Shown here in pieces: positions 27,765 through 44,506 of a stretch of DNA of 58,160 bases; the first letter of the stretch is position 1; each line of letters opens with the position of its first letter. Both the position numbers and the translations under genes were made by a program. The notes beneath the pieces are model-generated. The model ran no database searches. It was not told the origin of the DNA and saw only the letters and a list, made by a program, of their open reading frames with translations. The stretch comes from Chloroflexota bacterium (GTDB taxonomy: Bacteria > Chloroflexota > Dehalococcoidia > GIF9 > UBA5629): NCBI GenBank assembly GCA_016875875.1, contig VGOP01000013.1, forward strand, positions 1 through 58,160. The letters are read 5' to 3'.

Positions 27765-27779
27765 ATTAACAAACTGAAT

Positions 27780-27930
27780 AACTGTGGTAGGGTGCCCAGG
27801 GGTGACCAAGGGCTTAATTGAAATGCAAGCCGGTGTAATTCCGACACAGTCCCGCCTGCTGTAACAGTCAGAACATCAGCCCTATTGGGTATGGCTGCCT
27901 CCGCGGAGTAAGGGGGTGGGATTTATTATT
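27780..27930 (+). ncRNA. Cobalamin (B12) riboswitch
   Basis: The core reads AAGCCGGTGTAATTCCG followed by ACACAGTCCCGCCTGCTGTAA, the highly conserved central part of adenosylcobalamin-class riboswitches (consensus CCGGUG..AAUCCGG..CuGuCCCGC..CUGUAA). The upstream GGTGCCC..GGGTGACCAAGGG segment supplies the usual 5' arm. It lies directly before a btuFCD-cob operon, as expected. A hairpin with a U run follows at 27939-27973, so control is probably by transcription termination when cobalamin binds. Outer boundaries are approximate. Confidence 0.92.
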
Positions 27931-27997: not shown

Positions 27998-28912
27998 ATG
28001 AACCATTACATCCGAAAAGGCTTTTGTATCCTGGCAGCAATGGCATTGTTTCTCTGTCTCAGCTGTGTTCCACAATCCCCGCCGGGGAACATAGTTTATG
28101 GTCTCGGGATAAAAGTAACGATCGATGTAATACCTCAAAGAATCGTCTCTTTGGCACCGAGTAATACCGAAATCATGTTTACTCTCGGGCTAGGCGACAA
28201 AGTGGTTGGAGTCACTGAGTACTGTGACTATCCTCAGGCGACTAAGACTAAACCTAAAGTGGGTGGTTTCAGTACTGTAGACATAGAAAAGGTAGTTTCG
28301 TTCGAGCCAGATTTAGTGCTGGCAACCCAGATCCAAGGTAAAACCGTCATTCCCGCGCTGGAAGAACTTGGCCTAACAGTTGTTGCTCTGACACCAAGTT
28401 CCTCACCTGAAGTGCTGGATAATACAACACTGGTACGTAAAATAACTGGACAAAATAAACAGGCTTCGGAGCTAGTTTGTGACTTGAGGGCAAGGAGTGA
28501 AGCGGTAATTGATAAAACCCGAACCTTATCTCAAGATCAAATGCCGAGAGTCTTTTATATCACCTGGCATGACCAACTGATGACTGCTGGCGCAGAAACC
28601 TTAGCCAACGACATAATCAGCAAGGCAGGCGGACAAAACATTGCCTCCAATATTTCTGGCGACAAAACTATCAACTTAGAGACAGTCATCTACAGAGACC
28701 CGCAGATAATTGTCGCCTCGGTTGGTATGGGGGCTGGTGAAGACTTACCATGGCAATATGTGCGAAGTGAATCAAGACTGAAAAACATCCAAGCACTATT
28801 AAACGGTAAGGTATATAAAATCGATGGTGACCTGATACACCGCCCTGGTCTCAGAATAGTCGAAGCTCTGGAACAGATGGCACTATTTATCCACCCTGAA
28901 CTTTTCAATTGA
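27998..28912 (+). CDS. btuF: Cobalamin ABC transporter substrate-binding lipoprotein
   Basis: A 304-residue exported protein. The N terminus has a charged start, a hydrophobic stretch and a lipobox-like LSC with Cys23 as predicted lipidation site, so it should be anchored to the outer face of the membrane. The mature part has the two-lobed PF01497 pattern: PQRIVSLAPSNTEIMFTLG, VVGVTEYCDYP, then LGLTVVALTPSS in the linker region. It should bind corrinoids and deliver them to BtuCD. It is the first gene after the cobalamin riboswitch and is followed by btuC after 49 bases, which fixes the ligand better than sequence alone. Confidence 0.92.
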   Translation: MNHYIRKGFCILAAMALFLCLSCVPQSPPGNIVYGLGIKVTIDVIPQRIVSLAPSNTEIMFTLGLGDKVVGVTEYCDYPQATKTKPKVGGFSTVDIEKVVSFEPDLVLATQIQGKTVIPALEELGLTVVALTPSSSPEVLDNTTLVRKITGQNKQASELVCDLRARSEAVIDKTRTLSQDQMPRVFYITWHDQLMTAGAETLANDIISKAGGQNIASNISGDKTINLETVIYRDPQIIVASVGMGAGEDLPWQYVRSESRLKNIQALLNGKVYKIDGDLIHRPGLRIVEALEQMALFIHPELFN

Positions 28913-28961: not shown

Positions 28962-30041
28962 ATGGCATTAGACCTGATTAAGAATACGACTATGCCCGAA
29001 ACTGCTGTACTTTATACCATACAGTGGCGTAGCCGAATTTATGCCATAGTTGGACTGGCTTCACTTTTAGTATTAACAATTATAGTTACCTTAGCCGTAG
29101 GCAGCACTGACATTCCCTTTGATACGTTATACCATGTCCTATTGGCCAAGTTGCCTTTTATCCATGTAGAACCTACATGGGGAAGCAACATAGAGACCAT
29201 TGTTTTCGACATTCGACTGCCCCGACTGCTCCTAGCAGGCATGGTAGGTGCCGCGCTGGCTGTGGCTGGCACCACATATCAAGGACTCTTCCGCAATCCC
29301 CTGGCTGACCCTTATCTCATCGGAGTTGCCCAAGGCGCAGCTTTAGGAGCCGTTATCGGTTTCATGCTACCGATATCGTGGCAGGCAAGCTGTATCCCGT
29401 TACTGGCATTCATTGGGGCCGTTTCAGCCGTAGCTGTGGTCTACTCCATAGCCAGAGTCGGTAAAACTCTGCCCATGACAACCCTTATCCTGGCTGGCGT
29501 AGCCCTTGGTGCCTTCATAGCAGCAATCACTTCATACTTGATGATTGCCTCAGGAGACAGATTGCACGGCATAATTTCCTGGCTTCTGGGCACCTTCTCA
29601 TTAACTAGCTGGTGGCAGGTAGCTATAGTGGCACCTTATATCTTCATCGGCACAATAGTTATCTGTCTCCATGCCCGCCCTTTAAACGTAATGCAACTTG
29701 ACGAAGAGCAGGCACAGCAGCTAGGCATCAATGTGGAACAGGTCAAGCTGATTTTGCTCGGAGCTGCAACTCTGATAACTGCTGCTGCAGTCTGCTTCTG
29801 CGGCACCATCGGCTTTGTCGGCATCATTATCCCCCATGCAGTTCGGCTTATCTGGGGTCCCGACCACCGCTTTCTCTTACCACTAGCCACTTTCGCTGGT
29901 GCTATCTTCTTGATTCTAGCTGATACTGCCGCCCGAACCATGCTAGCACCCACAGAGATACCAATAGGCGTAATTACCGCCTTTCTAGGTGCTCCTTTCT
30001 TTCTTTATCTCTTGCGCCAAAGGAAGAGGGCGATATTCTAA
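28962..30041 (+). CDS. btuC: Cobalamin ABC transporter permease
   Basis: A 359-residue FecCD-family permease. About ten membrane helices are visible; the conserved DIRLPRLLLAGMVGAALAVAG follows the first helix, GLFRNPLADPYLIG comes next, and CGTIGFVGIIIPHAVRL lies towards the C-terminal side and includes the coupling region to the ATPase. The N-terminal 30 residues before the first helix are somewhat long. It pairs with the adjacent btuD to move corrinoids into the cell. The stop codon abuts the btuD start with no gap. Confidence 0.93.
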   Translation: MALDLIKNTTMPETAVLYTIQWRSRIYAIVGLASLLVLTIIVTLAVGSTDIPFDTLYHVLLAKLPFIHVEPTWGSNIETIVFDIRLPRLLLAGMVGAALAVAGTTYQGLFRNPLADPYLIGVAQGAALGAVIGFMLPISWQASCIPLLAFIGAVSAVAVVYSIARVGKTLPMTTLILAGVALGAFIAAITSYLMIASGDRLHGIISWLLGTFSLTSWWQVAIVAPYIFIGTIVICLHARPLNVMQLDEEQAQQLGINVEQVKLILLGAATLITAAAVCFCGTIGFVGIIIPHAVRLIWGPDHRFLLPLATFAGAIFLILADTAARTMLAPTEIPIGVITAFLGAPFFLYLLRQRKRAIF

Positions 30042-30830
30042 ATGTTCAACTTACAACTAGCTAACGTCAACTTAGGTTACGGAAAACAAACTGTGCTCCA
30101 TGATATCAGCTTTGATGCCAAGCCAGGAGCAATGCTGGGCATCATCGGCCCCAACGGCTCCGGTAAATCAACATTGATCAAAGGTATAACGCGGCTAATC
30201 AAACCTAGCTCAGGACAAATTTTCCTTGACGGCACTAACATAGCCGATATGAACCAGCAAGATTTAGCCCGACTGGTGGCTGTTGTCCCCCAAAATCCTG
30301 CCCTACCTGAACCTTTCACTGCTCTTGAGGTGGTACTTATGGGACGCACACCACATCTGGGTCTATTGAGATATGAAGGAGAAAAGGACTTGGTTATTGT
30401 TCAAAGAGCCATGGAAGCTACCCAGACACTTGTCTTTGCTGAACGCAGAGTCGGCGAGCTGTCCGGAGGCGAAAGACAACGCCTAACTATCGCCCGCGCC
30501 TTAGCCCAGGAACCAAAAATAATACTCATGGATGAGCCTACTGCCAATTTAGACATTAATTATCAGATAGAAACTCTAGATCTGGCTCGCCAGCTATGTC
30601 GAGAACAAGGCTTAATTGTGGTGGTGACGCTTCATGACCTAAACTTGGCATCTCAGTATTGCGACCGGCTGGTAATGCTCAGCGATGGTAAAATCTACTG
30701 CAATGGGATTCCTAAGGTCGTGATCAATGCCCAGGCTATCAAGGAGGTTTACGGGGCTGAAGTCTATGTCTATCCCCACCCGATTAATGCTTTGCCCGCC
30801 ACCCTTATCGTGTCTGACAAAGACAGATAA
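30042..30830 (+). CDS. btuD: Cobalamin ABC transporter ATP-binding protein
   Basis: A 262-residue ABC ATPase: Walker A GPNGSGKST at residues 36-44, signature LSGGERQ at 140-146, Walker B ILMDEP at 161-166 and the H-loop in VVTLHDLNLAS. It is of the FepC/BtuD type and energises BtuC. It starts immediately after the btuC stop and is followed by cbiB after 14 bases. Confidence 0.94.
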   Translation: MFNLQLANVNLGYGKQTVLHDISFDAKPGAMLGIIGPNGSGKSTLIKGITRLIKPSSGQIFLDGTNIADMNQQDLARLVAVVPQNPALPEPFTALEVVLMGRTPHLGLLRYEGEKDLVIVQRAMEATQTLVFAERRVGELSGGERQRLTIARALAQEPKIILMDEPTANLDINYQIETLDLARQLCREQGLIVVVTLHDLNLASQYCDRLVMLSDGKIYCNGIPKVVINAQAIKEVYGAEVYVYPHPINALPATLIVSDKDR

Positions 30831-30844
30831 ATGCTTGAAAAATC

Positions 30845-31774
30845 ATGGACACAATAATCATCCTGCTCATAGCTCTTGCCCTTGATCTCATCGTTGGTGA
30901 GCCATCCAATACCTGGCATCCCATAGCCTGGCTGGGTAAGCTAATTTCACTAGAGACAAGATTATCTCCACAAAAGGGCAAACTCAGACAGCTCACCTAT
31001 GGTGGTGGCATTGTTTTAATAACGCTTGGACTAATTGTCACAGCCATCTACTTCTTGCTTGCTCACTTGAGCGAATTTAACGCCGTGGTTTACGTCATTG
31101 TCGCTGGGCTTTTACTGAAATTCAGTTTTTCTCTACGCGGGCTTAGGCAAGCCGTTAAAGCAGTTAAAAGTCTTCTGGCTAAACATAATCTGTTCCAAGC
31201 ACGCATAAGCTTAAAGTCTCTGGTCAGTCGGGACACTGCTGAACTCAATAAGAGTCAGGTGATATCAGCCACTGTAGAGTCAGCAGCCGAGAATATATGT
31301 GACAGCTTTGTAGCTCCCCTTTTTTATTTCCTCCTCTTCGGCGTATCCGGTGCCATAACCTACCGAGTACTAAATACATTTGATGCTATGGTGGGCTACC
31401 ATGGACAATGGGAATACCTGGGTAAATTTGCCGCCAGATTGGACGATGTCGCTAATTTCATCCCGGCACGGATTACCGCCTTAATAATAATTCTAGCAGG
31501 CCTGATATGCCGAAAAAATACGTCACGAGCCTGGCACATTATGCTTCGAGACCATAATAAAACTGAAAGTCCCAACGCTGGCTGGACAATGAGTGCCATC
31601 GCCGGCGCTTTAGGAGTGCAACTAGAAAAAGTCAACCATTACAGACTGGGTGATAGCTACTATCCCCTATCACTTGACACAATTAATGCTTCTCGACAAA
31701 TCATTGCTGTGACAGCTATTATCTGGTGCTTAATATCCATACTTGCCGAGGTGATATATTTTGCTGCGACCTAG
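30845..31774 (+). CDS. cbiB: Adenosylcobinamide-phosphate synthase CbiB
   Basis: A 309-residue membrane protein that joins the aminopropanol arm to cobyric acid. Diagnostic parts are the N-terminal LALDLIVGEPSNTWHPIAWLGKLI, the central SRDTAELNKSQVISATVESAAENICDS region and WTMSAIAGALGVQLEK near the C terminus. Several membrane helices separate these. Symbol usage varies (CbiB in enterics, CobD in Pseudomonas). It overlaps the decarboxylase gene by 14 bases, and that enzyme makes its aminopropanol phosphate co-substrate. Confidence 0.94.
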   Translation: MDTIIILLIALALDLIVGEPSNTWHPIAWLGKLISLETRLSPQKGKLRQLTYGGGIVLITLGLIVTAIYFLLAHLSEFNAVVYVIVAGLLLKFSFSLRGLRQAVKAVKSLLAKHNLFQARISLKSLVSRDTAELNKSQVISATVESAAENICDSFVAPLFYFLLFGVSGAITYRVLNTFDAMVGYHGQWEYLGKFAARLDDVANFIPARITALIIILAGLICRKNTSRAWHIMLRDHNKTESPNAGWTMSAIAGALGVQLEKVNHYRLGDSYYPLSLDTINASRQIIAVTAIIWCLISILAEVIYFAAT

Positions 31775-32858
31775 ACCAGTTATAGATAAGCTCACCCCCT
31801 GCGCTCACGGTGGCATAGACCATGCAGAGCTAAGGAACCTCGGCATTTCCCCAGAGGCTGTCCTCGACTTCAGCGTTAGCTGTAATCCATTCGGGGCACC
31901 ACCAGGGATAAGAGAGGCTTTAGCCGATACATTAATAGAATCTTATCCCGACTCTGAAGCCAGTGAACTGAAACAGTTGCTGGCTCGAAAGCTAGACACA
32001 TCTGCGGACAATCTCATAATAGGCAGCGGCTCAACTGAGCTAATCAGGCTTATAGCTACTGCCTACTTTGAACCTAATGATTTGGTTATTGTCCCACAGC
32101 CTACCTATGGTGAATATGAAACAGCATGCCACCTCGCCAACGCTCAAATACTGAAACAGCCAGTGCTAAAAGCGCCAAACTTCCAGCTAGATATGGCTGA
32201 AATGACAAATTTGCTCCAAAAGCACCGACCTAAAGCCATTTTCCTGTGTAATCCCAACAACCCTACCGGACAATATATGTCCAAGGAGAAATTGCTACGG
32301 ATTATGTCAAGTGCTCAGAACAGCCTGTTTATCCTTGATGAAGCCTACATCGCCTTCACCGAAAACGCCTGGACATCTTTGGATTTAATAAACAATAGTA
32401 ATTTAGTTATCCTTCGGTCAATGACCAAGGACTATGCCCTAGCCGGACTACGCCTCGGCTACGCCATAGCTGCTGAGTCAATTATTTCCGCCCTGAAATG
32501 TGTTCGCCCCCCTTGGAATGTCAATGTCATAGCCCAAAAAGCTGGCATACTTGCTCTAAACGCCGACAGCTATATTCAGGAATGCGGAGACAAAATCCGA
32601 GAAGCCAAAGATTTTCTGATAGAAGAGCTTGAACGCCTGGGGCTATCGCCACTACCCTCACAAACCAATTTCTTCCTGGTCAAGGTCGGCAACGCCACGG
32701 CTTTTAGACAAGCCCTATTAAGGAAAAGTATATTAGTCCGTGATTGTACATCCTTCGGCTTATCTGAATACATACGCCTGGCACCACGCATCTTGCCGGA
32801 ATGCCAGAAGCTAATCGAGTCTATAAAAGAAATTGGAGTACTGAGCCATGCCAGCTAA
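31761..32858 (+). CDS. cobD: Threonine-phosphate decarboxylase
   Basis: A 365-residue PLP enzyme of the class I/II aminotransferase fold. NPNNPTG is at residues 164-170 and the PLP-binding lysine is K223 in SMTKDYALAGLRLGY; the N-terminal HGGID and SVSCNPFG segments fit CobD/CobC rather than HisC. It makes (R)-1-amino-2-propanol O-2-phosphate for CbiB. The start is TTG inside the end of cbiB, and the end overlaps cobQ by 11 bases. Confidence 0.92.
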   Translation: MLRPRPVIDKLTPCAHGGIDHAELRNLGISPEAVLDFSVSCNPFGAPPGIREALADTLIESYPDSEASELKQLLARKLDTSADNLIIGSGSTELIRLIATAYFEPNDLVIVPQPTYGEYETACHLANAQILKQPVLKAPNFQLDMAEMTNLLQKHRPKAIFLCNPNNPTGQYMSKEKLLRIMSSAQNSLFILDEAYIAFTENAWTSLDLINNSNLVILRSMTKDYALAGLRLGYAIAAESIISALKCVRPPWNVNVIAQKAGILALNADSYIQECGDKIREAKDFLIEELERLGLSPLPSQTNFFLVKVGNATAFRQALLRKSILVRDCTSFGLSEYIRLAPRILPECQKLIESIKEIGVLSHAS

Positions 32859-34386
32859 AACCCTGATGATACAGGGCACAGCCTCCTCGGTAGGCAAGAG
32901 CATCATTGTAGCTGGTTTATGCCGTATTTTCCGGCAAGACGGCTTCAAAGTTGCCCCTTTCAAAGCTCAGAATATGGCCTTAAATTCCTTCGCCACCAAA
33001 GAAGGCGGTGAGATCGGACGAGCCCAAGCAGTACAGGCCGAAGCAGCCGGCGTCGAGCCTTCAGTCCACATGAACCCTGTCTTGCTTAAGCCCGAGGCTG
33101 ATGCCAGTTCACAGGTAATCGTCCTTGGCAAGGTGGCCAAAAGCTTGAAGGCTAGCCAATACTACAGCCACACACCCAACCTGCTGAAGATAATCGAAAG
33201 CTCCTTGAACCGACTACTCTCTGCCTATGACATCGTGGTCATCGAAGGAGCTGGCAGCCCGGCAGAAATAAATCTTAAAGAGAGGGAAATAGTCAATATG
33301 CGAGTGGCCAAAATGGCTAATGCTCCTGTCCTCCTAACAGGAGATGTCGACCGCGGCGGTGTCTTCGCCTCTCTAGTCGGCACCCTGGAGCTGCTAACCG
33401 AACAGGAGCGCGATCTCATCAAAGGATTCGTCATCAATAAATTTCGCGGCGACCTGAAGCTATTGAAACCAGGGTTGGATATCTTAGAGAAACGCACTGG
33501 CAAGCCAGTTCTGGGGGTCATCCCATATTTCCGAGACATCAACATCGCTCAAGAGGATTCAGTCTATCTCGATGAAAGGCAAACGAGCTCGGCTAACGGA
33601 ACTGTCGATGTGGCTGTGATACGTCTACCCCACATCTCCAACTACGATGATCTCGACCCCTTAGAGGAGCAAGGTTGCACCGTCCGCTATGTGTCAAATA
33701 CCTCTGAACTGGGTAATCCCGACCTGCTAATTCTGCCCGGCACTAAAAGCACCGTCGCCGATTTAATGCACTTGCAACAACAAGGACTGGCACAGGCCAT
33801 AATCCACCGGGCAAGGTCCGGCATTCCAGTGATAGGCATTTGCGGAGGCTATCAGATGCTGGGCAAGAGCATACACGACCCTGACAAAATCGAATCCAAG
33901 CAGGACAGCATTGCCGGACTGGGCTTACTCAATAGCACAACCATCTTTCACAATGACAAAACTACCAAACAGGTTAAAGCTCGGGTGGCTGCCGACAAAG
34001 GCTTGCTCAAAGGGCTTAAGGACATAGAGGTCACTGGCTATGAGATTCACATGGGGCAAACCAGCAGCCGGGACTGCCAGCCGGCACTCCACATCTTCGA
34101 AACATCTCAGGGGAAAGTCAATTACTTCGATGGCGCTGTCGGCAACAATGGATTGATATTCGGAACCTATATTCATGGCTTACTTCACAATGCAACATTC
34201 ACACACCTCCTCTTGAACAGGCTGCAACAGCTCCGCAAACTGCCTGAAACATCCGCCACGTCAATAAGCAAACAGGAAATATATGATAAACTAGCTGATA
34301 TAATCAGGCAGAACCTCGATATGTCCCAGGTCTATAAAATTACTCTGGGGAGGAATCAGCCTTACCGGCATAACGCAAGGCTTTAG
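32848..34386 (+). CDS. cobQ: Cobyric acid synthase
   Basis: A 512-residue glutamine-dependent amidase (also CbiP). The N-terminal dethiobiotin-synthetase-like ATPase starts with IQGTASSVGKSI, followed by KAQNMALNSF; the C-terminal GATase domain has the Cys in GICGGYQMLG (about residue 332) and the His in YIHGLLHN. It amidates four carboxylates of adenosylcobyrinic a,c-diamide. Its presence without any corrin-ring genes suggests remodelling of imported incomplete corrinoids. A hairpin spans its stop codon. Confidence 0.95.
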   Translation: MPAKTLMIQGTASSVGKSIIVAGLCRIFRQDGFKVAPFKAQNMALNSFATKEGGEIGRAQAVQAEAAGVEPSVHMNPVLLKPEADASSQVIVLGKVAKSLKASQYYSHTPNLLKIIESSLNRLLSAYDIVVIEGAGSPAEINLKEREIVNMRVAKMANAPVLLTGDVDRGGVFASLVGTLELLTEQERDLIKGFVINKFRGDLKLLKPGLDILEKRTGKPVLGVIPYFRDINIAQEDSVYLDERQTSSANGTVDVAVIRLPHISNYDDLDPLEEQGCTVRYVSNTSELGNPDLLILPGTKSTVADLMHLQQQGLAQAIIHRARSGIPVIGICGGYQMLGKSIHDPDKIESKQDSIAGLGLLNSTTIFHNDKTTKQVKARVAADKGLLKGLKDIEVTGYEIHMGQTSSRDCQPALHIFETSQGKVNYFDGAVGNNGLIFGTYIHGLLHNATFTHLLLNRLQQLRKLPETSATSISKQEIYDKLADIIRQNLDMSQVYKITLGRNQPYRHNARL

Positions 34387-34460: not shown

Positions 34461-34985
34461 ATGGTTGAAAAAAACTCCAAAGGCCTCGTCCACGTTTACA
34501 CCGGTGACGGCAAAGGCAAGACCACTGCCGCCTTAGGTCTGGCAATGCGAGCAGTGGGACAAAGTATGAAGGTAGCTTTCATCCAGTTCTTAAAAGGAAT
34601 ACCCTGCGGCGAGCATCTCTTCGTAAAGCAGTATAACCCTTTTGAAATAATCCAGGTGAGCGTCGGAGATAGCTTTAACAAACCAAAAGAACAGTTAAGC
34701 CAAGAAGCTCAGCAAACGCTAACCTACGCTGAGCAAGAGATACTCAGCGGGAAATATGACCTGGTCATACTCGACGAGATCTTTGTTGCCATCAGCCAGG
34801 GACTGATAACCATCAAACAAGTCTTGGACTTATTGGACTCAAAACCAGCCTCGGTTGAGCTGGTCATGACCGGCAGGAAGGCACCTCCAGAGATAGTCCA
34901 ACGGGCTGATTTAGTCACCGAGATGCTCCTGATTAAGCATCCATTCACCGAAGGAACAGATGCCAGACGTGGCATTGAATATTAA
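34461..34985 (+). CDS. cobO: Corrinoid adenosyltransferase (CobA/CobO/BtuR type)
   Basis: A 174-residue ATP:cob(I)alamin adenosyltransferase. The modified P-loop GDGKGKTT at residues 15-22 near the N terminus, VILDEI and VELVMTGRKAPPEIV are typical of the family. It attaches the upper adenosyl ligand to corrinoids. The ATG has AGGAGG five bases upstream, one of the strongest ribosome sites in the operon, right after the hairpin that follows cobQ. Confidence 0.95.
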   Translation: MVEKNSKGLVHVYTGDGKGKTTAALGLAMRAVGQSMKVAFIQFLKGIPCGEHLFVKQYNPFEIIQVSVGDSFNKPKEQLSQEAQQTLTYAEQEILSGKYDLVILDEIFVAISQGLITIKQVLDLLDSKPASVELVMTGRKAPPEIVQRADLVTEMLLIKHPFTEGTDARRGIEY

Positions 34986-35004: not shown

Positions 35005-36078
35005 ATGGCCACTTCCCTAGACACAATACTTAAAGAAATAAAACCGCTGGATAGCTCAGCAATGGCCGCTGCCCAAAGCCGTCAGAACAGCCTGACCAAG
35101 CCGCACGGCAGCTTAGGCAGGCTGGAAGAGCTGTCAATCCAGCTTGCCGGAATCAAAGGTGAAGCCACACCTAAACTGGAACATAAATCTATAATCATCA
35201 TGGCTGCTGACCACGGTGTCGTTGCTGAAACAGTCAGCCTCTACCCCCAAGCAGTAACCCGCCAGATGGTGCTGAACTTCCTCAAAGGCGGTGCCGCCAT
35301 AAATGTCCTCGCCGGTCAGATAGGCGCCCGGGTTATAGTAGTAGATATGGGTGTAATAGGCGGCTTCCAACCACTACCCGGGTTATTATGTAAAATGATT
35401 GATTTCGGCACCAAGAACATCACACAAGGACCGGCGATGACCCGCCAGCAAGCCATAGCTACCATAGAGGCCGGCATCCAGGTGTTTGAGGCTGAGATGG
35501 GAAAAAGACTTGATATCATTGGCACCGGAGATATGGGCATCGGCAATACTACCGCCAGTAGTGCCATCTTCGCTGCCATCAGCGGCAGACCACCCAAGAA
35601 AATCACCGGTCGTGGCACCGGCATTGGAGATAGGCAGCTCGCCCATAAAATCAAGGTGATAGAGAGAGCCTTATCCGTTAACAAACCGAACCCTAAAGAC
35701 CCGATAGACGTACTAGCCAAGGTTGGTGGCTTCGAGATCGGCGGCCTGGTTGGAGTGATACTGGCTGGGGCTGCCTACAGAATACCGGTGGTCATTGACG
35801 GCCTCATCTCCGGAGCTGCAGCCCTCATCGCCACCGGCCTGTCACCACAAGCCAAAGACTACCTCATCGCCGCTCATGTCTCGGCAGAGACAGGACATGA
35901 GCTTTTGCTCCAATTCCTTGGCCTGAAACCGCTGCTTGATTTAAACATGCGGCTGGGTGAAGGCACCGGCGCTGTTTTGGGCATTTCCCTCGCTGAAGCT
36001 GCCGCCAGGACCTTGAGCCAGATGGCTACCTTCGCCCAAGCCGGCGTCTCCGAAGCCAAACCGCTAGAGTCGCAGTAA
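35005..36078 (+). CDS. cobT: Nicotinate-nucleotide--dimethylbenzimidazole phosphoribosyltransferase
   Basis: A 357-residue enzyme activating the lower-ligand base as an alpha-ribotide. The catalytic glutamate is E319 in LGEGTGAVLG; IMAADHGVV, GDMGIGNTT and GLISGAAAL are further family signatures. In Dehalococcoidia-type bacteria the base is usually scavenged. The ATG follows AGGAG. Twenty bases separate it from cobO and 11 from cobS. Confidence 0.95.
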   Translation: MATSLDTILKEIKPLDSSAMAAAQSRQNSLTKPHGSLGRLEELSIQLAGIKGEATPKLEHKSIIIMAADHGVVAETVSLYPQAVTRQMVLNFLKGGAAINVLAGQIGARVIVVDMGVIGGFQPLPGLLCKMIDFGTKNITQGPAMTRQQAIATIEAGIQVFEAEMGKRLDIIGTGDMGIGNTTASSAIFAAISGRPPKKITGRGTGIGDRQLAHKIKVIERALSVNKPNPKDPIDVLAKVGGFEIGGLVGVILAGAAYRIPVVIDGLISGAAALIATGLSPQAKDYLIAAHVSAETGHELLLQFLGLKPLLDLNMRLGEGTGAVLGISLAEAAARTLSQMATFAQAGVSEAKPLESQ

Positions 36079-36089
36079 GGAGCTAAACT

Positions 36090-36821
36090 TTGGGTTTCTG
36101 GGCAGCACTCCAATTTCTAACCATATTTCCCACTCCTCTCCGCCACGAGGTCACAGCTAAGACCTCCGGCCAGTCCCTCCCTTATTTTCCGCTGGTCGGC
36201 TTAATTCTCGGAACTATCCTACTTGGTCTTAATTATGGACTAACTTTTATTCTGCCACCTTCTGTGGTAAATGCCCTGCTCATCATAGCCCTGGTCATCC
36301 TGACCGGAGCCCATCACCTCGACGGCTTCATCGACACCTGCGACGGCATCATCGCCGGCAAATCTAAAAAAGAAAGGCTAGCTATAATGTCGGACAGCAA
36401 AGTCGGCGCCTTCGGCATCGTCGGCGCCATTCTCCTGCTGCTGCTCAAATATGCCTCCTTGTCCTCCTCACCGATATTGCCAGCCTTGTTGCTTATGCCC
36501 ACCTTAAGCCGCTGGGCAATGGTCTCCATCATCTTCACCTTTCCCTACGCCAAACGCTCTGGCATGGGACTTGCCTTCAAACGGGGTGCCACATGGCAGA
36601 AGCTGACCATAGCCACAGTACTAGCTTTGATTGTCGCCGTAGCCTTGCTGAAACTGTGGGGGCTGGTGCTGATGGCAGCCCTGTGGCTTATTGCCTTCGG
36701 CATAGCCAGCTGCTTCCGCTCACGCCTGGGCGGACTCACCGGCGATACTTATGGAGCCATCAACGAGCTGGCTGAGGTTCTGGTGCTCCTGCTACTCATC
36801 CTGATTGGGAGATTGCAGTGA
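36090..36821 (+). CDS. cobS: Cobalamin synthase (adenosylcobinamide-GDP ribazoletransferase)
   Basis: A 243-residue membrane protein. The motif HLDGFIDTCDG, with its acidic residues for metal binding, lies near residues 73-83, and LGGLTGDTYGA near the C terminus is also conserved. It joins adenosylcobinamide-GDP to alpha-ribazole (phosphate). It starts at TTG after AAGGAGC, and its stop overlaps the next gene by four bases. Confidence 0.93.
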   Translation: MGFWAALQFLTIFPTPLRHEVTAKTSGQSLPYFPLVGLILGTILLGLNYGLTFILPPSVVNALLIIALVILTGAHHLDGFIDTCDGIIAGKSKKERLAIMSDSKVGAFGIVGAILLLLLKYASLSSSPILPALLLMPTLSRWAMVSIIFTFPYAKRSGMGLAFKRGATWQKLTIATVLALIVAVALLKLWGLVLMAALWLIAFGIASCFRSRLGGLTGDTYGAINELAEVLVLLLLILIGRLQ

Positions 36822-37489
36822 CCGAATATGCGGCTTCATGGAGCGGTGGCAAGGACAGTTGCTTCGCCTATTGGAAAGCAATTTCCCAGGGCTTGAAGGT
36901 CAGCCACCTGCTCAACTTCATAAATACAGATTCAACCAGGGCTATGTCTCACGGCTTAGACCACAAGCTGATAGCTTTACAGGCACAGGCTATGGGATTG
37001 CCCATACTCCAGCAAAAAGTCACCTGGGAAACCTACGAAACCGGATTCAAAGACGCCTTAGAGAAGCTGAAGCTCAAAGGCATCGCCGGCCTGATTACCG
37101 GCGATATTCACCTCCAGGAACACAAAGACTGGATAGACAGGGTCTGTGGTGAATCAGGCATTAAGGCGGTATTGCCATTGTGGGAGATGGACAGCACCTG
37201 GCTTCTAACTGACTTCATCGAGGCTGGCTTTAAAGCCATTGTCGTCAGCGTCAAAGCTCAGTTCTTCGGCAAAGAGTGGCTAGGCAGGCAGGTGGACAGC
37301 AAACTGGCCTCCGAACTTAAAGCACTAGCGGCGGAATCAAAAATCGACGTCTGCGGTGAAACCGGGGAATTTCACACCTTTGTTTATGACGGGCCAACGT
37401 TCAAGAAGCCCATAAAAATAGTCAAGTCAGTCCCTATAGACAGAGATGACCACTGGACTTTAGACATACTGGAGTACAGTCTTGGCTAA
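36818..37489 (+). CDS. Dph6-like ATP pyrophosphatase (PP-loop) in the B12 operon
   Basis: A 223-residue adenine-nucleotide alpha hydrolase. The PP-loop SGGKDS is at residues 9-14, followed by GITGDIHL-type segments (LITGDIHLQEHKDW) and a C-terminal CGETGEFHTFVYDGP that is characteristic of diphthine-ammonia-ligase-like proteins. Bacteria have no diphthamide, so the substrate must differ. Its four-base overlaps with cobS (GTG start) and eight-base overlap with cobU strongly suggest a role in corrinoid salvage, perhaps an amidation or adenylation step; this is inference from context. Confidence 0.85.
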   Translation: MTEYAASWSGGKDSCFAYWKAISQGLKVSHLLNFINTDSTRAMSHGLDHKLIALQAQAMGLPILQQKVTWETYETGFKDALEKLKLKGIAGLITGDIHLQEHKDWIDRVCGESGIKAVLPLWEMDSTWLLTDFIEAGFKAIVVSVKAQFFGKEWLGRQVDSKLASELKALAAESKIDVCGETGEFHTFVYDGPTFKKPIKIVKSVPIDRDDHWTLDILEYSLG

Positions 37490-38021
37490 GCAAACTATCC
37501 TCCTACTCGGCGGCGCCCGTAGCGGCAAAAGCCATTACGCCCAGCAACTGGCTATGGAACTCGGCGGCAAAGTCCTCTTTGTCGCCACCGGTGAGGCACT
37601 CGATGAAGAGATGCAAACCCGTATTGAAGAGCATAAAAAAGACCGCCCCAAAAGCTGGCGGACACTGGAGATACCAACCGGCATTGGTAAAGAGATAGAG
37701 AAGCAAATCGGCGATGCCGAGGTGGTGATTATAGACTGCCTCACCCTGCTCGTATCCAACCTGCTCCGCGACGAGCCTGACTACCTTGAAGCAGAAAAAA
37801 GGGTGCTATCTGAAATAAACCAGCTTATCACCACCATTGACAAGCTAGATGCCAGCTTCGTCATCGTCTCCAACGAGGTTGGCATGGGCCTGGTACCCGA
37901 GACTAAGCTCGGCCGTATCTACCGCGACCTGCTGGGCAAAGCCAACCAGCTATTCGCCAGCCATGCCACCGAAGTCTATCTCATGGTAGCCTGCCTGCCA
38001 GTCCAGGTAAAAGGACAATAA
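37482..38021 (+). CDS. cobU: Adenosylcobinamide kinase / adenosylcobinamide-phosphate guanylyltransferase
   Basis: A 179-residue bifunctional enzyme. The P-loop is GGARSGKS at residues 10-17; FVATGEALDEEM, RPKSWRTLEIP, VIIDCLTLLVSNL and VSNEVGMGLVPE are the remaining signatures. It phosphorylates adenosylcobinamide and then loads GMP to form AdoCbi-GDP for CobS. It starts at TTG within the end of the PP-loop gene. It is the last recognised gene of the operon; no cobC-type phosphatase follows. Confidence 0.95.
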   Translation: MAKQTILLLGGARSGKSHYAQQLAMELGGKVLFVATGEALDEEMQTRIEEHKKDRPKSWRTLEIPTGIGKEIEKQIGDAEVVIIDCLTLLVSNLLRDEPDYLEAEKRVLSEINQLITTIDKLDASFVIVSNEVGMGLVPETKLGRIYRDLLGKANQLFASHATEVYLMVACLPVQVKGQ

Positions 38022-39476: not shown

Positions 39477-41642
39477 ATGAAGTTCATCCGTTTGCATAAG
39501 CGCCCCCTACTGAGATGTGGCATTAGCCGTGTGCTTTGCCTGACAATGACTTGCCTGCTCACCATCTCAAGCGCTTTACTCCTCTTTGCCAGTCCTGTCC
39601 AGGCAGCGCTGTTTATCACCACCTCACCACTTCTGCCACAAGGCCAGGTGGGCAGCCCATACTATGCAGTACTAACAGCAACTGGCGATAACCCACCTTT
39701 TACCTGGAGCATCACCAGCGGCGCCCCACCACCAGGTTTAAGTCTTGCAGCATCAGGGATTATATCAGGTACGCCAACCATGGCCGGCAATTTCAACTTC
39801 ACAGCCACGGTTACCGACAGCGTGGCTGTTACTGCAAGCCAACCATTTATTATCAACGTGACTCAACCTCCGTTAAAGTTCTTTACAACTACTTTAGCAC
39901 TAGCCGAAGAGGGCAAGGCCTACAGTAGCACAATAGCAGTCAGCGGTGGTACAACACCATATACCTGGTCTATCGCCAGCGGTACATTGCCAACAGGGCT
40001 AACTTTAAATGTATCCAACGGCTACATCTCAGGTGTTCCAGCCAAAGGCAGCACTGGCAGCTATAGCTTCATGGTCAGCGTCAGCGATAGCTCATCACCA
40101 ACAATCACTGGTCAGCAGAGCTTCAGCATCACAGTGGAAAAGGGCGGCTATGAAGCTACCATAACCATCGGCGATGGGCTAAAAGTCGGAGAGACAAAGG
40201 TATACGTGTCGGGAAGCCCATTGGCTACGCTGCGAGGCGGCGAGTCCACGAAACTCAGCCTCGATATCGGCGCAACCCGGTCGGTAAGCGTAGACCCAGT
40301 TATCCAGCATCCGACTGAGTCCAGCGTCAGGTTCAAAGCCGAGGTAGATAGAATTACAGTGAGTGAAGCTTCACCTGATGCCACCTTCCCCTATCACACG
40401 GAGTATTCTATCGAGCTCAAAACCGAGCCTTCAAAGGTCGGCCAACTATCAGGCTCTGGCTGGTATAAGGAGGGCTATATGCTTAGAGTCAGCGCTCCGA
40501 ACGAGGTCAATGACCCAAATGACCCGGGCACACAATATCGCTTTGCCTACTGGAAACTGCCCTCCGGTGAAACCATCTCCGGCAGAGACCTGAACCTGAC
40601 AGTCAACTCTCCGGGGAACTGCCTCGCCTATTACGACACCTATTATAGGCTAAGCCTAACATCGCCTTATGGCGAAGCGGAAGGTAGTAACTGGTACAAG
40701 GCTGGCAGCATAGCCGAATGGAGCATGACGAATACGCAAGTCCGCATGCCCGGTATTCTCGGTGTCTTCGGCGGCAAGCTAAATGCTGTGAATTCCAGCG
40801 GTTCTACGCCTATAGATGGCCCCAAGGCAATAACCATAGATTGGGAGCCCGACTATACAATGCCATTCATTCTGATACCTGCGGCAATTGTCTTGCTCAT
40901 TTTGGGCGGCTATGGCCTATATCTCCTGTTACGCAGTTTGCAACCAAAGCCAGCACCATTTCCTCCGCCGTACCCATACATGCCTCCACCACCTCCTCAG
41001 CCTGTGCCACCACCTCAAACCACAGTGGTAATGATAGGTGGAGATAAGCCAAAACTGGGCCAGGGAACAACTAGAGAGCAACTGATGGAAAAGTTCGGTG
41101 AACTTCTCGAGAAATACGAGGACGAGATCAAAACCTCAATAGGTGCCAAAGAACTACCTGGAGTTAAAACGGTTGAGGAGGAGAGAAGGCTGGCAGCACC
41201 TGAAGAAACTCCGCCAACTGTAGCAGAAACAGACGCCACACCAGAAAAAGAAGACACAACATGCAGCTTCACTTCGAAGAAGCCCCTGAGAGTGGTTGCC
41301 AGTAATTGGAGGCAAGTGGAGACCAGGACTGTAGCCCCGCCATCCACCAAGGGGAAGGCAACTGAAGGTGAGACTGGCCTTGCCATAGTCTGGACACTAG
41401 ATATATACCAAGAATGGGAAATCCTCAACTGCTGGCTGCAACAAGGGCACAAAGAACCCCACGAAGGCAGCGTAGAGGTAGTCTACAGCCAGATTAATAC
41501 CATCACAGAAGAGAAAATCTATGCGCCAGGTGAGAACCTCGAGCCACCTACACCTCACTATACAGATGGCATGCCCCGAGTAGAGGTGACTGCCGGCGAG
41601 GTTGTTCCCTCCGACAAGCTGCCCCCCGAAACAATGCCATGA
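39477..41642 (+). CDS. Membrane-anchored surface protein with putative-Ig (He-PIG) repeats
   Basis: A 721-residue protein of unknown function. A signal-type hydrophobic segment covers about residues 18-42 and ends near VQAA. Two putative-Ig (PF05345-like) repeats follow at about 50-125 and 133-220, each with the pattern PFTWSI/PYTWSI..G.LP.GL......ISG.P. A further extracellular part leads to one membrane helix at about 462-484, then a proline-rich linker and a 235-residue charged C-terminal region predicted to be cytoplasmic. There is no good ribosome site, consistent with a short leader. The next gene overlaps in an ATGA junction. Confidence 0.7.
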   Translation: MKFIRLHKRPLLRCGISRVLCLTMTCLLTISSALLLFASPVQAALFITTSPLLPQGQVGSPYYAVLTATGDNPPFTWSITSGAPPPGLSLAASGIISGTPTMAGNFNFTATVTDSVAVTASQPFIINVTQPPLKFFTTTLALAEEGKAYSSTIAVSGGTTPYTWSIASGTLPTGLTLNVSNGYISGVPAKGSTGSYSFMVSVSDSSSPTITGQQSFSITVEKGGYEATITIGDGLKVGETKVYVSGSPLATLRGGESTKLSLDIGATRSVSVDPVIQHPTESSVRFKAEVDRITVSEASPDATFPYHTEYSIELKTEPSKVGQLSGSGWYKEGYMLRVSAPNEVNDPNDPGTQYRFAYWKLPSGETISGRDLNLTVNSPGNCLAYYDTYYRLSLTSPYGEAEGSNWYKAGSIAEWSMTNTQVRMPGILGVFGGKLNAVNSSGSTPIDGPKAITIDWEPDYTMPFILIPAAIVLLILGGYGLYLLLRSLQPKPAPFPPPYPYMPPPPPQPVPPPQTTVVMIGGDKPKLGQGTTREQLMEKFGELLEKYEDEIKTSIGAKELPGVKTVEEERRLAAPEETPPTVAETDATPEKEDTTCSFTSKKPLRVVASNWRQVETRTVAPPSTKGKATEGETGLAIVWTLDIYQEWEILNCWLQQGHKEPHEGSVEVVYSQINTITEEKIYAPGENLEPPTPHYTDGMPRVEVTAGEVVPSDKLPPETMP

Positions 41643-44506
41643 GAGGCTACGACATTGCCAGCAAGCATCTAAGACTTGGACTTGGACTTGGGCTTGCGCT
41701 GGCTTTGATTATGACCGTCTGTTTCATAGCTCCCACTAGGACACCTTCAGCCCACGCTGGGACAATGCAATGGACCACCGTCGACACACCAAACAACACG
41801 GGTAACGTCATTATCAGCCCATCAGAAATAGACGCCATCGCCATCGGCAGTGATAGCAGAACTTTTTACGCTATCGATATACCCAACAGCAAAGTCTATA
41901 AGTCATCGAACGGAGGTATTACCTGGGATGACCTGACCGGCTATCTGACAATTGCTGGTGCTGTTCTGCCCGCCTGGAATATAGCTATCGCGCCAGATAA
42001 CCCGAACTTTGTAACCATGGTGACCAGCGACGGTGGTTTACCCAGAAAGGTATTTATCTCAACCGATGGTGGTGATAATTGGCAAGACATAAATTGCCCG
42101 GTGACGAGCAACATCGGTGCCATTGCTATCTCTCCCAATTATGGTGGCTATGATATAGCTATTGGCACACGAACTGGAGCTGGCAACGGCGATGTCTATA
42201 TTTTCAATGCAGCTGGCCCCGGCAACTGGGCTTCCCAGGGCTTCACCGGCGACATACTAGTACTCAAGTTCTCACCCAACTATCGAGCCGATTCTAGTCT
42301 GGTTACAATTTCAGCCCATCCCACTGGTACCTATATCAACATTGGAATTCACGACAGAGTGGCCAACATCACCAGCTGGGGTAACTGGGGCCCGATAGAG
42401 ATAACGGCTGCAGGTGCTGGCACCTCTCCAACAATAGCTCAAGTTATAACCGCCGACATTGAGCTACCCGCCGACTTCTCAGGGCAAGCACCAAGTCTGC
42501 GCCGTATGTATGTCAGCATAGATGCGCCGACGGCGAATACAGGCATTTACCGCTTCGATGACACTGTCGGCCATCTGCTGATGCCTACTCCTGCTCCTTT
42601 AAGGATTTCCAGCATCGCTTACTACGGAACCTATAGCTCAGGCAAACTACTGGCTGGCGAAGTTAGCGGCAATGCCAACACATCTGCAGTAATAACATGG
42701 TTTACTGATGCTGCTACGACTTGCCAAGGAACCTGCTGGTACCAAAGTCAAAAAGCTCCAACTGGTGGCGGCAACTCAGGTCTTGCCAACTCTCAGGTGA
42801 TATGGAGTTCTGATGGCAACCGCGCATATTGCGCTACCAGTTCCGCCTTGCTCAATAGCCCGGCAAGCTGGCCTGGGGGTTATTTGGCAGGCGTTGCCCT
42901 AGATGAATCAGCCTTGTCTCTAAGCTTGGATAACGCCGAAACGTGGAATCAGCTCAGCCTGATAGATACTGAGATAAGCTTTCTCTCCGATGTGGCAGTA
43001 ACACCAGCCTCAGATACCATCTACTTGGCATCTATCAATAACCACGTCGGGATCAACAACTTTGACAGCATCTGGCGGACAACAGGCCCTCCAACAGGAA
43101 AGGTATGGGAACGAGTCCTGTGTCTCCTATCAACAACCAACGACTTAATCCTGCGCACAAGCAATGTCGGCAATGACCCGACTATATATCTAGCCTCCCG
43201 GTTAACAGATGATTTAAGGCAATCGCCGGATAGTGGCCAGAACTGGAATAACACCTTGCCGGGGGTTAATGTGACCGATTTTGCCGTTACCAGAATTAAT
43301 GGTGTACCTCGCATATACATCCTGGATAACAATTACATTCGCCAAGGGGCCAGCAATGGACTAGCATGGCAATGGGCACCAAAAACAGACACAACTTTAA
43401 ATACAGGACACAGCATCATCGCTACACCAACGGGCGTTGTCGTAGTCGGTGATAAAGCTGAGGGCATGATCGCCTATTCGCTGGATGGCGGCACTTCTTT
43501 TGAGCAAACTCCAGCTATCCCAGAGCCGGGTAAGATGCATGTAATTGCCGACTATAGGTTCCAGAATGACGTAATCATCTACGCTGCCAGTGATAGTGAC
43601 GGAAGCGACATTTATGACTGGGTCATAGACTCAGACCTCGGCTGGACAGCTATGGGAGCACCCGGTCGCAGCTTCTATGGCCTAGCTCAGCTTGAGACAC
43701 TCTATGGTGCCTGGTCAAGCGGTGGCATCACCGCTGCTGACCGCACTCTGGAACCAGAGAGGCTTGGCCCTCCCTACATTGAATGGGATGACTTAGCTGT
43801 GGGATTAGCCCCGGGTGTTGTTTTCACCAGAGAGCCTGTCGCATTAAAAATCTCAGCGGGCATCAACCTGTGGGCAATCGACAATAGACCTCACACTGCC
43901 ACTACAGGCCATCTTTGGAATTTCTACGATTGCTTTTCGCCAAGCCCTCAATATACACCACCACCTCCACCAAGCCGGGAGGTACTATTCCAGGCTCCGA
44001 TACCGGCTTCACCGGTGATAGATGAGGTAATACCCATATACTTGAATACTGGAGATATTGGCGCCATCGTATTCAAATGGAAACACCCGACGGCGGCCAT
44101 AGAATACGAACTCTGGCTGGCTAAAGATGAAGCCTTCAGTCAGTTAATATTGCAACAAGCGATAAAACCCGAGAGCCGACAGACACCTAGCTGGACATTG
44201 CCCAAGACAGTCGGTTTAGAAAAAGGTAAGGAATACTACTGGAAGATAAGGGTCAGCCAAGCAGAGACAGGTGAAAAAGATGATGGCCAGTGGTCTAAGG
44301 TCATGTCATTCAGCATAGCATCACCACCACCAGAGGAAACTTCTCAACCTGGCCCTACCCCGACAACTCCACCAAATGGTACCGTAAAAGAAACTGAACC
44401 TCTACCGTGGACAGCAAATCTCCCTCTGTGGGCATGGATTACGATTGCCTTCTTACTCGTTGTCATACCTGTTGCCGCCCTCCTCGTCAGCAGAACAAAG
44501 AGGTAG
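41639..44506 (+). CDS. Exported, membrane-anchored Asp-box/BNR repeat protein
   Basis: A 955-residue protein of unknown function. Residues 10-40 form a signal peptide (LGLGLGLALALIM, ending at AHAG). The body carries at least five Asp-box-like turns, S.(D/N)(G/A)G..W/F, for example SSNGGITW, STDGGDNW, SPDSGQNW and SLDGGTSF, as in sialidase, sortilin or YCF48-type beta-propellers. Near residue 810-885 is an FnIII-like domain (VFKWKHPTAAIEYELWLA ... YYWKIRVS), then a Pro/Thr-rich linker and a C-terminal helix ending in RTKR. It overlaps the He-PIG gene by four bases, so the two are made together. Confidence 0.72.
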   Translation: MRGYDIASKHLRLGLGLGLALALIMTVCFIAPTRTPSAHAGTMQWTTVDTPNNTGNVIISPSEIDAIAIGSDSRTFYAIDIPNSKVYKSSNGGITWDDLTGYLTIAGAVLPAWNIAIAPDNPNFVTMVTSDGGLPRKVFISTDGGDNWQDINCPVTSNIGAIAISPNYGGYDIAIGTRTGAGNGDVYIFNAAGPGNWASQGFTGDILVLKFSPNYRADSSLVTISAHPTGTYINIGIHDRVANITSWGNWGPIEITAAGAGTSPTIAQVITADIELPADFSGQAPSLRRMYVSIDAPTANTGIYRFDDTVGHLLMPTPAPLRISSIAYYGTYSSGKLLAGEVSGNANTSAVITWFTDAATTCQGTCWYQSQKAPTGGGNSGLANSQVIWSSDGNRAYCATSSALLNSPASWPGGYLAGVALDESALSLSLDNAETWNQLSLIDTEISFLSDVAVTPASDTIYLASINNHVGINNFDSIWRTTGPPTGKVWERVLCLLSTTNDLILRTSNVGNDPTIYLASRLTDDLRQSPDSGQNWNNTLPGVNVTDFAVTRINGVPRIYILDNNYIRQGASNGLAWQWAPKTDTTLNTGHSIIATPTGVVVVGDKAEGMIAYSLDGGTSFEQTPAIPEPGKMHVIADYRFQNDVIIYAASDSDGSDIYDWVIDSDLGWTAMGAPGRSFYGLAQLETLYGAWSSGGITAADRTLEPERLGPPYIEWDDLAVGLAPGVVFTREPVALKISAGINLWAIDNRPHTATTGHLWNFYDCFSPSPQYTPPPPPSREVLFQAPIPASPVIDEVIPIYLNTGDIGAIVFKWKHPTAAIEYELWLAKDEAFSQLILQQAIKPESRQTPSWTLPKTVGLEKGKEYYWKIRVSQAETGEKDDGQWSKVMSFSIASPPPEETSQPGPTPTTPPNGTVKETEPLPWTANLPLWAWITIAFLLVVIPVAALLVSRTKR

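Follow-up and report, generated by a model that had tools for sequence, protein, structure and literature searches.

A Dph6-like gene within a corrinoid salvage operon

What is a protein of the diphthamide-amidating Dph6 family, whose namesake completes a protein modification of archaea and eukaryotes, doing in a bacterial operon for corrinoid salvage? The question is raised by the window, the 58,160-nucleotide stretch of DNA analyzed here (VGOP01000013.1, positions 1 to 58,160 of the forward strand; Chloroflexota bacterium, assembly GCA_016875875.1). In it, a cobalamin riboswitch lies ahead of a same-strand run of eleven genes, ordered btuF-btuC-btuD-cbiB-cobD-cbiP-cobA-cobT-cobS-DUF71-cobU, the Dph6 homologue (DUF71) being the tenth:

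27773..27898, + strand: cobalamin riboswitch aptamer, operon leader (RF00174, 34.9 bits against a cut-off of 31.5, E 3.2e-5)
27998..28912, + strand: btuF, corrinoid-binding lipoprotein of the importer (ORF; same-named matches in related cob loci)
28962..30041, + strand: btuC, importer permease (ORF; related loci)
30042..30830, + strand: btuD, importer ATPase (ORF; related loci)
30845..31774, + strand: cbiB, adenosylcobinamide-phosphate synthase (PF03186, 295 bits; TIGR00380, over cut-off)
31761..32858, + strand: cobD, threonine-phosphate decarboxylase-like aminotransferase (PF00155; TIGR01140, 272 bits, under the cut-off of 290.6)
32848..34386, + strand: cbiP/cobQ, cobyric acid synthase (TIGR00313, 568 bits, over cut-off)
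34461..34985, + strand: cobA, corrinoid adenosyltransferase (PF02572, 203 bits)
35005..36078, + strand: cobT, lower-ligand phosphoribosyltransferase (TIGR03160, 447 bits, over cut-off)
36090..36821, + strand: cobS, cobamide synthase (PF02654, 189 bits)
36818..37489, + strand: candidate DUF71-B12 PP-loop ATPase, Dph6 homologue (PF01902, 195 bits; GETGEFHT motif)
37482..38021, + strand: cobU, adenosylcobinamide kinase/guanylyltransferase (PF02283, 196 bits; NF004469, over cut-off)

The names btuF, btuC and btuD are presumed from family likeness; the three genes match same-named genes of other cob loci. The DUF71 gene, an intact open reading frame of 223 aa with a GTG start and zero internal stops, had been predicted to overlap both of its neighbours. 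It does so, sharing 4 bases (GTGA) with cobS, which ends at 36821, and 8 bases with cobU, whose start is the TTG at 37482. The host genome (G000; 1.97 Mb, 96.75% complete) holds a single PF01902 gene. Whole-genome searches of it found neither CbiZ (profile PF01955) nor CbiC, and "salvage" is therefore an apt term; by the test of CbiC absence, the host is a predicted corrin-ring auxotroph. The cbiP gene (32848-34386) is retained though the genome lacks CbiC, as if incompletely amidated corrinoids were being scavenged.

Assignment of the window protein to the DUF71-B12 subgroup

The original prediction placed the protein in the Dph6 family, an assignment borne out over its entire length: the match to PF01902 (Diphthami_syn_2) spans residues 5-220 of 223 and scores 195 bits (cut-off, 23.2). 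An AlphaFold2 model built from 38 aligned sequences has a mean pLDDT of 96.4, and in a Foldseek search with this predicted model PH1257 and PF0828 account for the first eight matches, among them the ATP complex 3rk1 (best matches, 2d13 and 3rk1). Like Dph6 (PF0828, PH1257 and yeast YLR143w), the protein has the full-length fold, as predicted, with a TM of about 0.89 to 3rk1 and 2d13, and it keeps the PP-loop SGGKD, H45 and the GE-GE motif. Unlike Dph6, it carries in its GETGEFHT motif a His (His186) at the position of PF0828 E188, the Glu thought to be catalytic, and A42, E101 and H102 in place of PF0828 Y45, Y103 and Q104 (numbering transferred by alignment). Residues assigned to EF-2 contact by de Crecy-Lagard et al. 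(2012; PMC3541065) differ in the window protein at the positions compared. The protein thus has neither the conserved Glu nor the EF-2-facing residues of Dph6, and its score against the NCBIfam model of archaeal Dph6, TIGR03679, is 165.8 bits, under the cut-off of 197.3.

These features recall a group described in the same 2012 study, which split PF01902 into Dph6 and DUF71-B12 proteins. The latter have an ENGEF/YH-type motif with a His in place of the Dph6 Glu, and neighbour btuCDF in 75/102 cases and cbiB in 18/102 (PMC3541065). The window protein shares with them the whole-length PF01902 match, the His for E188 (H186), clustering with btuFCD and cob genes, and a bacterial host that has CbiB and lacks CbiZ; judged by sequence, it is a DUF71-B12 subgroup member of the Dph6 (PF01902) PP-loop ATPases. 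It departs from the mainly btuCDF- or cbiB-adjoining proteins of that study in being wedged between cobS and cobU. A 2016 table (PMC5041015) still gave the function of the group as unknown, and our literature search, with most subscription papers outside its reach, found no later functional study. DUF71-B12 has therefore been an orphan since 2012, present in many phyla under a family name that refers to diphthamide though its bacterial hosts have none.

Group-specific residues and linkage to B12 genes

Comparative analysis was based on a class panel of 147 genomes, each at least 90% complete, 52 of which contain PF01902. Sequences shorter than 185 aa or with internal stops were excluded from the class rows, and dropping the duplicates L141, L154 and L192 left 137 rows. 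The fetched sequences split into the window-type group A, a group B with the signature FGD..LEDVRKYR..GENGEFH, and a group C made up of a single family, f11, which we take to be Dehalococcoides-like. Six further PF01902 places, divergent and confined to one genus, were left unfetched (G077, G087, G097, G133, G139, G146). The FastTree tree has many open forks and was used only for the clade of the window protein with L066 and L087, the f16 neighbours of that clade, and the separation of group B.

His186 is present in 105/105 window-type rows, and the corresponding His in 16/16 rows of group B and 16/16 of group C. Being universal in the three groups, it marks "not Dph6" rather than "B12". Better markers of group A are H102 (100/105 rows) and W105 (101/105), positions at which group B has V/I/L and Y/H. 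In group C, H and W are mostly retained, whereas E184 is missing from 16/16 rows and E181 from 12/16. Residues S9, K12, D13 (sometimes E), H45, E181, E184 and H186 are near-universal among window-type sequences.

The original prediction proposed a survey of gene neighbourhoods for recurring linkage to B12 genes, and such linkage was found. Scoring as linked any DUF71 gene with a cob or btu gene within 3 kb, we obtained 15/28 for group A, 0/16 for group B and 4/16 for group C (cbiZ only); the difference between A and B has a one-sided Fisher p of 1.6e-4, relatedness ignored. Several arrangements occur: cobS-DUF71-cobU in the window, G142 and G092; cobS-cobC-DUF71-cobU in G035, G075, G085 and G136; cobU-DUF71-btuC-btuD in G044, G080 and G111; and btuF-DUF71-(cobA)-btuC-btuD in G031, G056, G071, G121 and G135. 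The differing gene orders indicate that the association of DUF71 with B12 genes was remade several times. Two genomes of the same family as the window genome (G007, G113) have a cob operon without DUF71 and a group A copy elsewhere. In all, 13/28 class window-type sequences are unlinked, including the five f16 sister sequences and those of G096, G107, G110 and G145, genomes with no CobS and no CobU.

Linkage extends to other phyla. A wider contig set (genome_contigs) contains at least 80 relatives; among the matches listed, linked cases come from Nitrospirae, Omnitrophota, Syntrophaceae, Kiritimatiellae, Flavobacteria, Chloroflexi and archaea, and 34/77 rows outside group B are linked to cob or btu genes. 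Janthinobacterium and Pandoraea rows among these matches are not beside such genes.

Could the window protein nonetheless be a genuine diphthine-ammonia ligase, or its gene a passenger unrelated to the rest of the operon? The annotated family name and the 13/28 unlinked class sequences would suit one or the other. Yet bacteria are without diphthamide (PMC3541065), the score is under the TIGR03679 cut-off, the catalytic Glu and EF-2-facing residues of Dph6 are replaced, and linkage to B12 genes has arisen repeatedly and independently, making both explanations highly improbable. A role of the window protein in B12 salvage is very probable. The non-diphthamide, corrinoid-salvage role advanced in the original prediction is thus well founded by recurring linkage; it is not a new idea, since a B12 link had already been predicted in 2012 (PMC3541065).

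Matches to "cobD" beside the f16 sequences (L061, L062, L065, L067, L086) were rejected as B12 linkage and counted as unlinked because the one in L061, inspected by eye, resembles a general aminotransferase and is adjoined by an Lrp-type regulator. The f16 sister clade as a whole adjoins an aminotransferase-like gene, not cob genes, with an Lrp-like regulator in 4/5 cases; four f16 genomes have a cob cluster elsewhere (L122, L129, L130, L132). In group C, the divergent DUF71 genes of L093, L106, L107 and L108 (E184 lost; genomes Dehalococcoidaceae-like) lie beside genes for radical SAM proteins, a tetrapyrrole-methylase gene, and cbiZ or cbiB. Other group C loci (L088, L090-L092) adjoin genes that seem to resemble those of reductive dehalogenases.

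DUF71 and cobC occur side by side

The original prediction pointed out that the operon has no cobC and suggested that the protein may carry out an unassigned step of corrinoid or lower-ligand processing. The window operon does lack the gene, and the host genome matches TIGR03162 only through two histidine phosphatases encoded on other contigs (133.7 and 126.7 bits), both under the cut-off of 162.9. That DUF71 replaces CobC, the alpha-ribazole phosphatase, non-orthologously would suit its position in the window: in the Dehalococcoides-like genome G032, cobC alone fills the slot between cobS and cobU, and a Dehalogenimonas module is written "cobTSCU" (PMC13390414). The idea of a replacement fails, however, since cobS-cobC-DUF71-cobU occurs in four class genomes (G035, G075, G085, G136) and in L161. 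The two genes are therefore not alternatives, and DUF71 as a CobC substitute was rejected; with a predicted PP-loop fold besides, this reading is almost certainly wrong.

CbiB, CbiZ and the remodelling of cobamides

A different function was put forward in 2012, namely that DUF71-B12 is equivalent to CbiZ, opening the amide bond of adenosyl-pseudocobalamin so that cobyric acid is released for CbiB to re-elaborate (PMC3541065). The window genome agrees with it, having CbiB and CobD but neither CbiC nor CbiZ, so that something should supply cobyric acid. Like CbiZ, an adenosylcobinamide/pseudo-B12 amidohydrolase, DUF71 keeps the company of btuFCD and cbiB and shows near-exclusive occurrence in bacteria. 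The same study described DUF71-B12 and CbiZ as near-complementary in bacteria and co-occurring in archaea (PMC3541065). Here, CbiZ accompanies window-type DUF71 in 1/27 class genomes, against 12/120 class genomes without a window-type gene (p 0.27); among the genome_contigs matches listed, it is found in 12/16 archaeal genomes and 1/29 bacterial ones. The 45 genomes behind the genome_contigs loci were divided by hand into these 29 bacterial and 16 archaeal genomes and carry no completeness figures, so that gene absences in them weigh less than those in the class panel.

Other aspects of the distribution do not sit easily with a role confined to that of CbiZ. CbiC is absent from 15/15 B12-linked class genomes, all of which therefore look like corrin-ring auxotrophs; CbiB, expected alongside a CbiZ equivalent and present in the window genome, is missing from 8 of these 15, as well as from 12/29 bacterial genomes behind the genome_contigs matches listed, including Flavobacterium sp. 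H122 and F. ranwuense. Conversely, of 51 class genomes that have CbiB but lack CbiC, 30 carry neither DUF71 nor CbiZ. The exclusion itself has exceptions (G052, G150), and the strict bacterial anticorrelation of PMC3541065 is broken in G052 and also in L149 (Nitrospirae), the lone bacterial case among the matches listed, where cbiZ lies directly beside DUF71 within one operon. DUF71 differs from CbiZ (PF01955) in belonging to a separate Pfam family, and a PP-loop ATPase acting as a hydrolase would be unusual. Taken together, these data make equivalence to CbiZ decidedly unlikely. At the family level, 10/13 class genomes with CbiZ also carry PF01902, nine of them being f11 (group C); this co-occurrence and the window-type p of 0.27 weaken any strict DUF71/CbiZ anticorrelation.

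Remodelling might also proceed without CbiB. CbiR, a cobamide-remodelling phosphodiesterase discovered through similar linkage (PMC7733943), is likewise encoded beside cobamide-assembly genes. An enzyme of this kind would cut the nucleotide loop to yield cobinamide(-phosphate), from which CobU, CobT and CobS rebuild a cobamide with the preferred lower ligand. Window-type genes are often immediate neighbours of cobU, cobT or cobS, and CobU and CobS are both present in 21/27 window-type class genomes; the co-occurrence with CobU is a weak signal, as CobU is common anyway, and CobS was found in 62/74 genomes searched. On the other hand, CbiR belongs to the AP-endonuclease-2 superfamily and hydrolyses the phosphoribosyl bond (PMC7733943), unlike DUF71, whose predicted fold is that of a PP-loop ATPase, not a phosphodiesterase. 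Furthermore, G071 and G121 (99% and 96% complete) keep btuF-DUF71-cobA-btuC-btuD without CobS, CobU or CbiB; DUF71 there cannot prepare corrinoid for loop rebuilding. The two genomes are of one genus and thus represent one event, and the genes could be relics. We consider a CbiR-like cut to have a small chance of being correct.

The possible function is narrowed by these results: CbiB is not needed, DUF71 is not a stand-in for CobC, and one genus retains it with nothing but the importer and CobA. The CbiB-free, CobC-coexisting and importer-plus-CobA-only cases point to an early, ATP-dependent handling of imported corrinoid, and we infer that DUF71 acts close to the point of entry. That this action is ATP-dependent and precedes loop assembly is a proposition about evenly balanced between right and wrong.

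An asparagine-synthetase-like partner and the case for amide formation

Dph6 chemistry is the amidation of a carboxylate (PMC3541065). By analogy, ATP would be bound in the PP-loop site of DUF71, a corrinoid carboxylate would be adenylated, and ammonia attack would yield the amide. Corrinoids that are deamidated, or only incompletely amidated, might so regain their amide side chains and feed CobA and, where present, CobU, CobT and CobS. We chose this amide-forming reading because it best suits the family chemistry together with an asparagine-synthetase-like partner, the genomes without CbiB and the pair without CobS, each of these being circumstantial evidence.

The partner is a PP-loop protein of 306-335 aa with four invariant C-terminal Cys (zinc-ribbon) and no glutaminase (GATase) domain. 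The search for it covered 27 class genomes carrying window-type DUF71, 28 of the 120 class genomes that lack it, and 25 of the 45 genomes from genome_contigs, 80 in total; the query alignment drew on genes close to cob or DUF71 loci, which may introduce some bias. Thirteen of the 80 have it at 310 bits or more, and all 13 carry group A. Within the class, the count is 6/27 group A genomes versus 0/28 without (p 0.010, relatedness ignored). In genus g7, the DUF71 gene and the partner occur together in G071, G121 and G135 and are both missing from G082 and G102. Confinement of the partner to group A genomes, among those searched, points to amide chemistry.

Several observations weaken the proposal. 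The CbiP of the window already amidates corrin side chains, and the two activities would overlap; the partner is absent from the window genome, G007, G113, G142 (three weak matches, 158 bits at most) and G092; and replacement of the presumed catalytic Glu of Dph6 by His means that the chemistry may differ. Repair fits less well than remodelling with the near-exclusion of CbiZ in bacteria (class p 0.27, not significant). The 13/28 class sequences away from B12 genes, and the four window-type genomes among them that have neither CobS nor CobU, also count against the proposal. On balance, the overall reading of the window protein as a corrinoid-salvage DUF71-B12 enzyme, possibly forming amides on imported corrinoid at the expense of ATP, falls somewhat short of an even prospect. 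That the window protein itself performs the amidation step is rather doubtful. The broadest version, in which window-type DUF71, with the GATase-less zinc-ribbon partner in some lineages, would (re)amidate corrinoids in an ATP-dependent manner, repairing or completing scavenged molecules at entry, separately from remodelling and loop assembly, is unlikely as a whole.

A second recurring neighbour raises the alternative that DUF71 acts on a protein or peptide of corrinoid handling, much as Dph6 modifies EF-2. One cluster of radical SAM/SPASM genes lies upstream of DUF71 in L149, L160, L162, L164 and L168; two of the five were scanned against TIGR04163 (CbpB), and both are over cut-off. CbpA-type peptides precede the radical SAM/SPASM gene in 4/4 loci examined, 2/4 being over the TIGR04164 cut-off, and could be the target in some phyla. 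Against this stand the absence of any CbpA-type motif from the window and of CbpB from most linked loci, and we consider a protein or peptide target quite improbable. The window operon has neither the asparagine-synthetase-like gene nor CbpA/CbpB. Our literature search found no paper on the CbpAB peptide system, which is named by NCBIfam, and the parts of PMC3541065 consulted mention neither partner. In L162:3489-6671 (Syntrophaceae) and L149:1005-3517 (Nitrospirae), the asparagine-synthetase-like gene, CbpA, CbpB and DUF71 are consecutive inside B12 salvage clusters.

Large secreted-looking proteins near btuF

The host genome has a second cobalamin riboswitch (L221:5018-6037, G000:C1) ahead of another BtuF-like gene, which is followed by a gene for a 1088-aa secreted-looking repeat protein. 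Similar large proteins come after btuF in L066, L087 and L128. Downstream of the operon, the window encodes a 955-aa secreted-looking protein (41639-44506), the start of which looks, by eye, similar to these proteins of L066 and L087.
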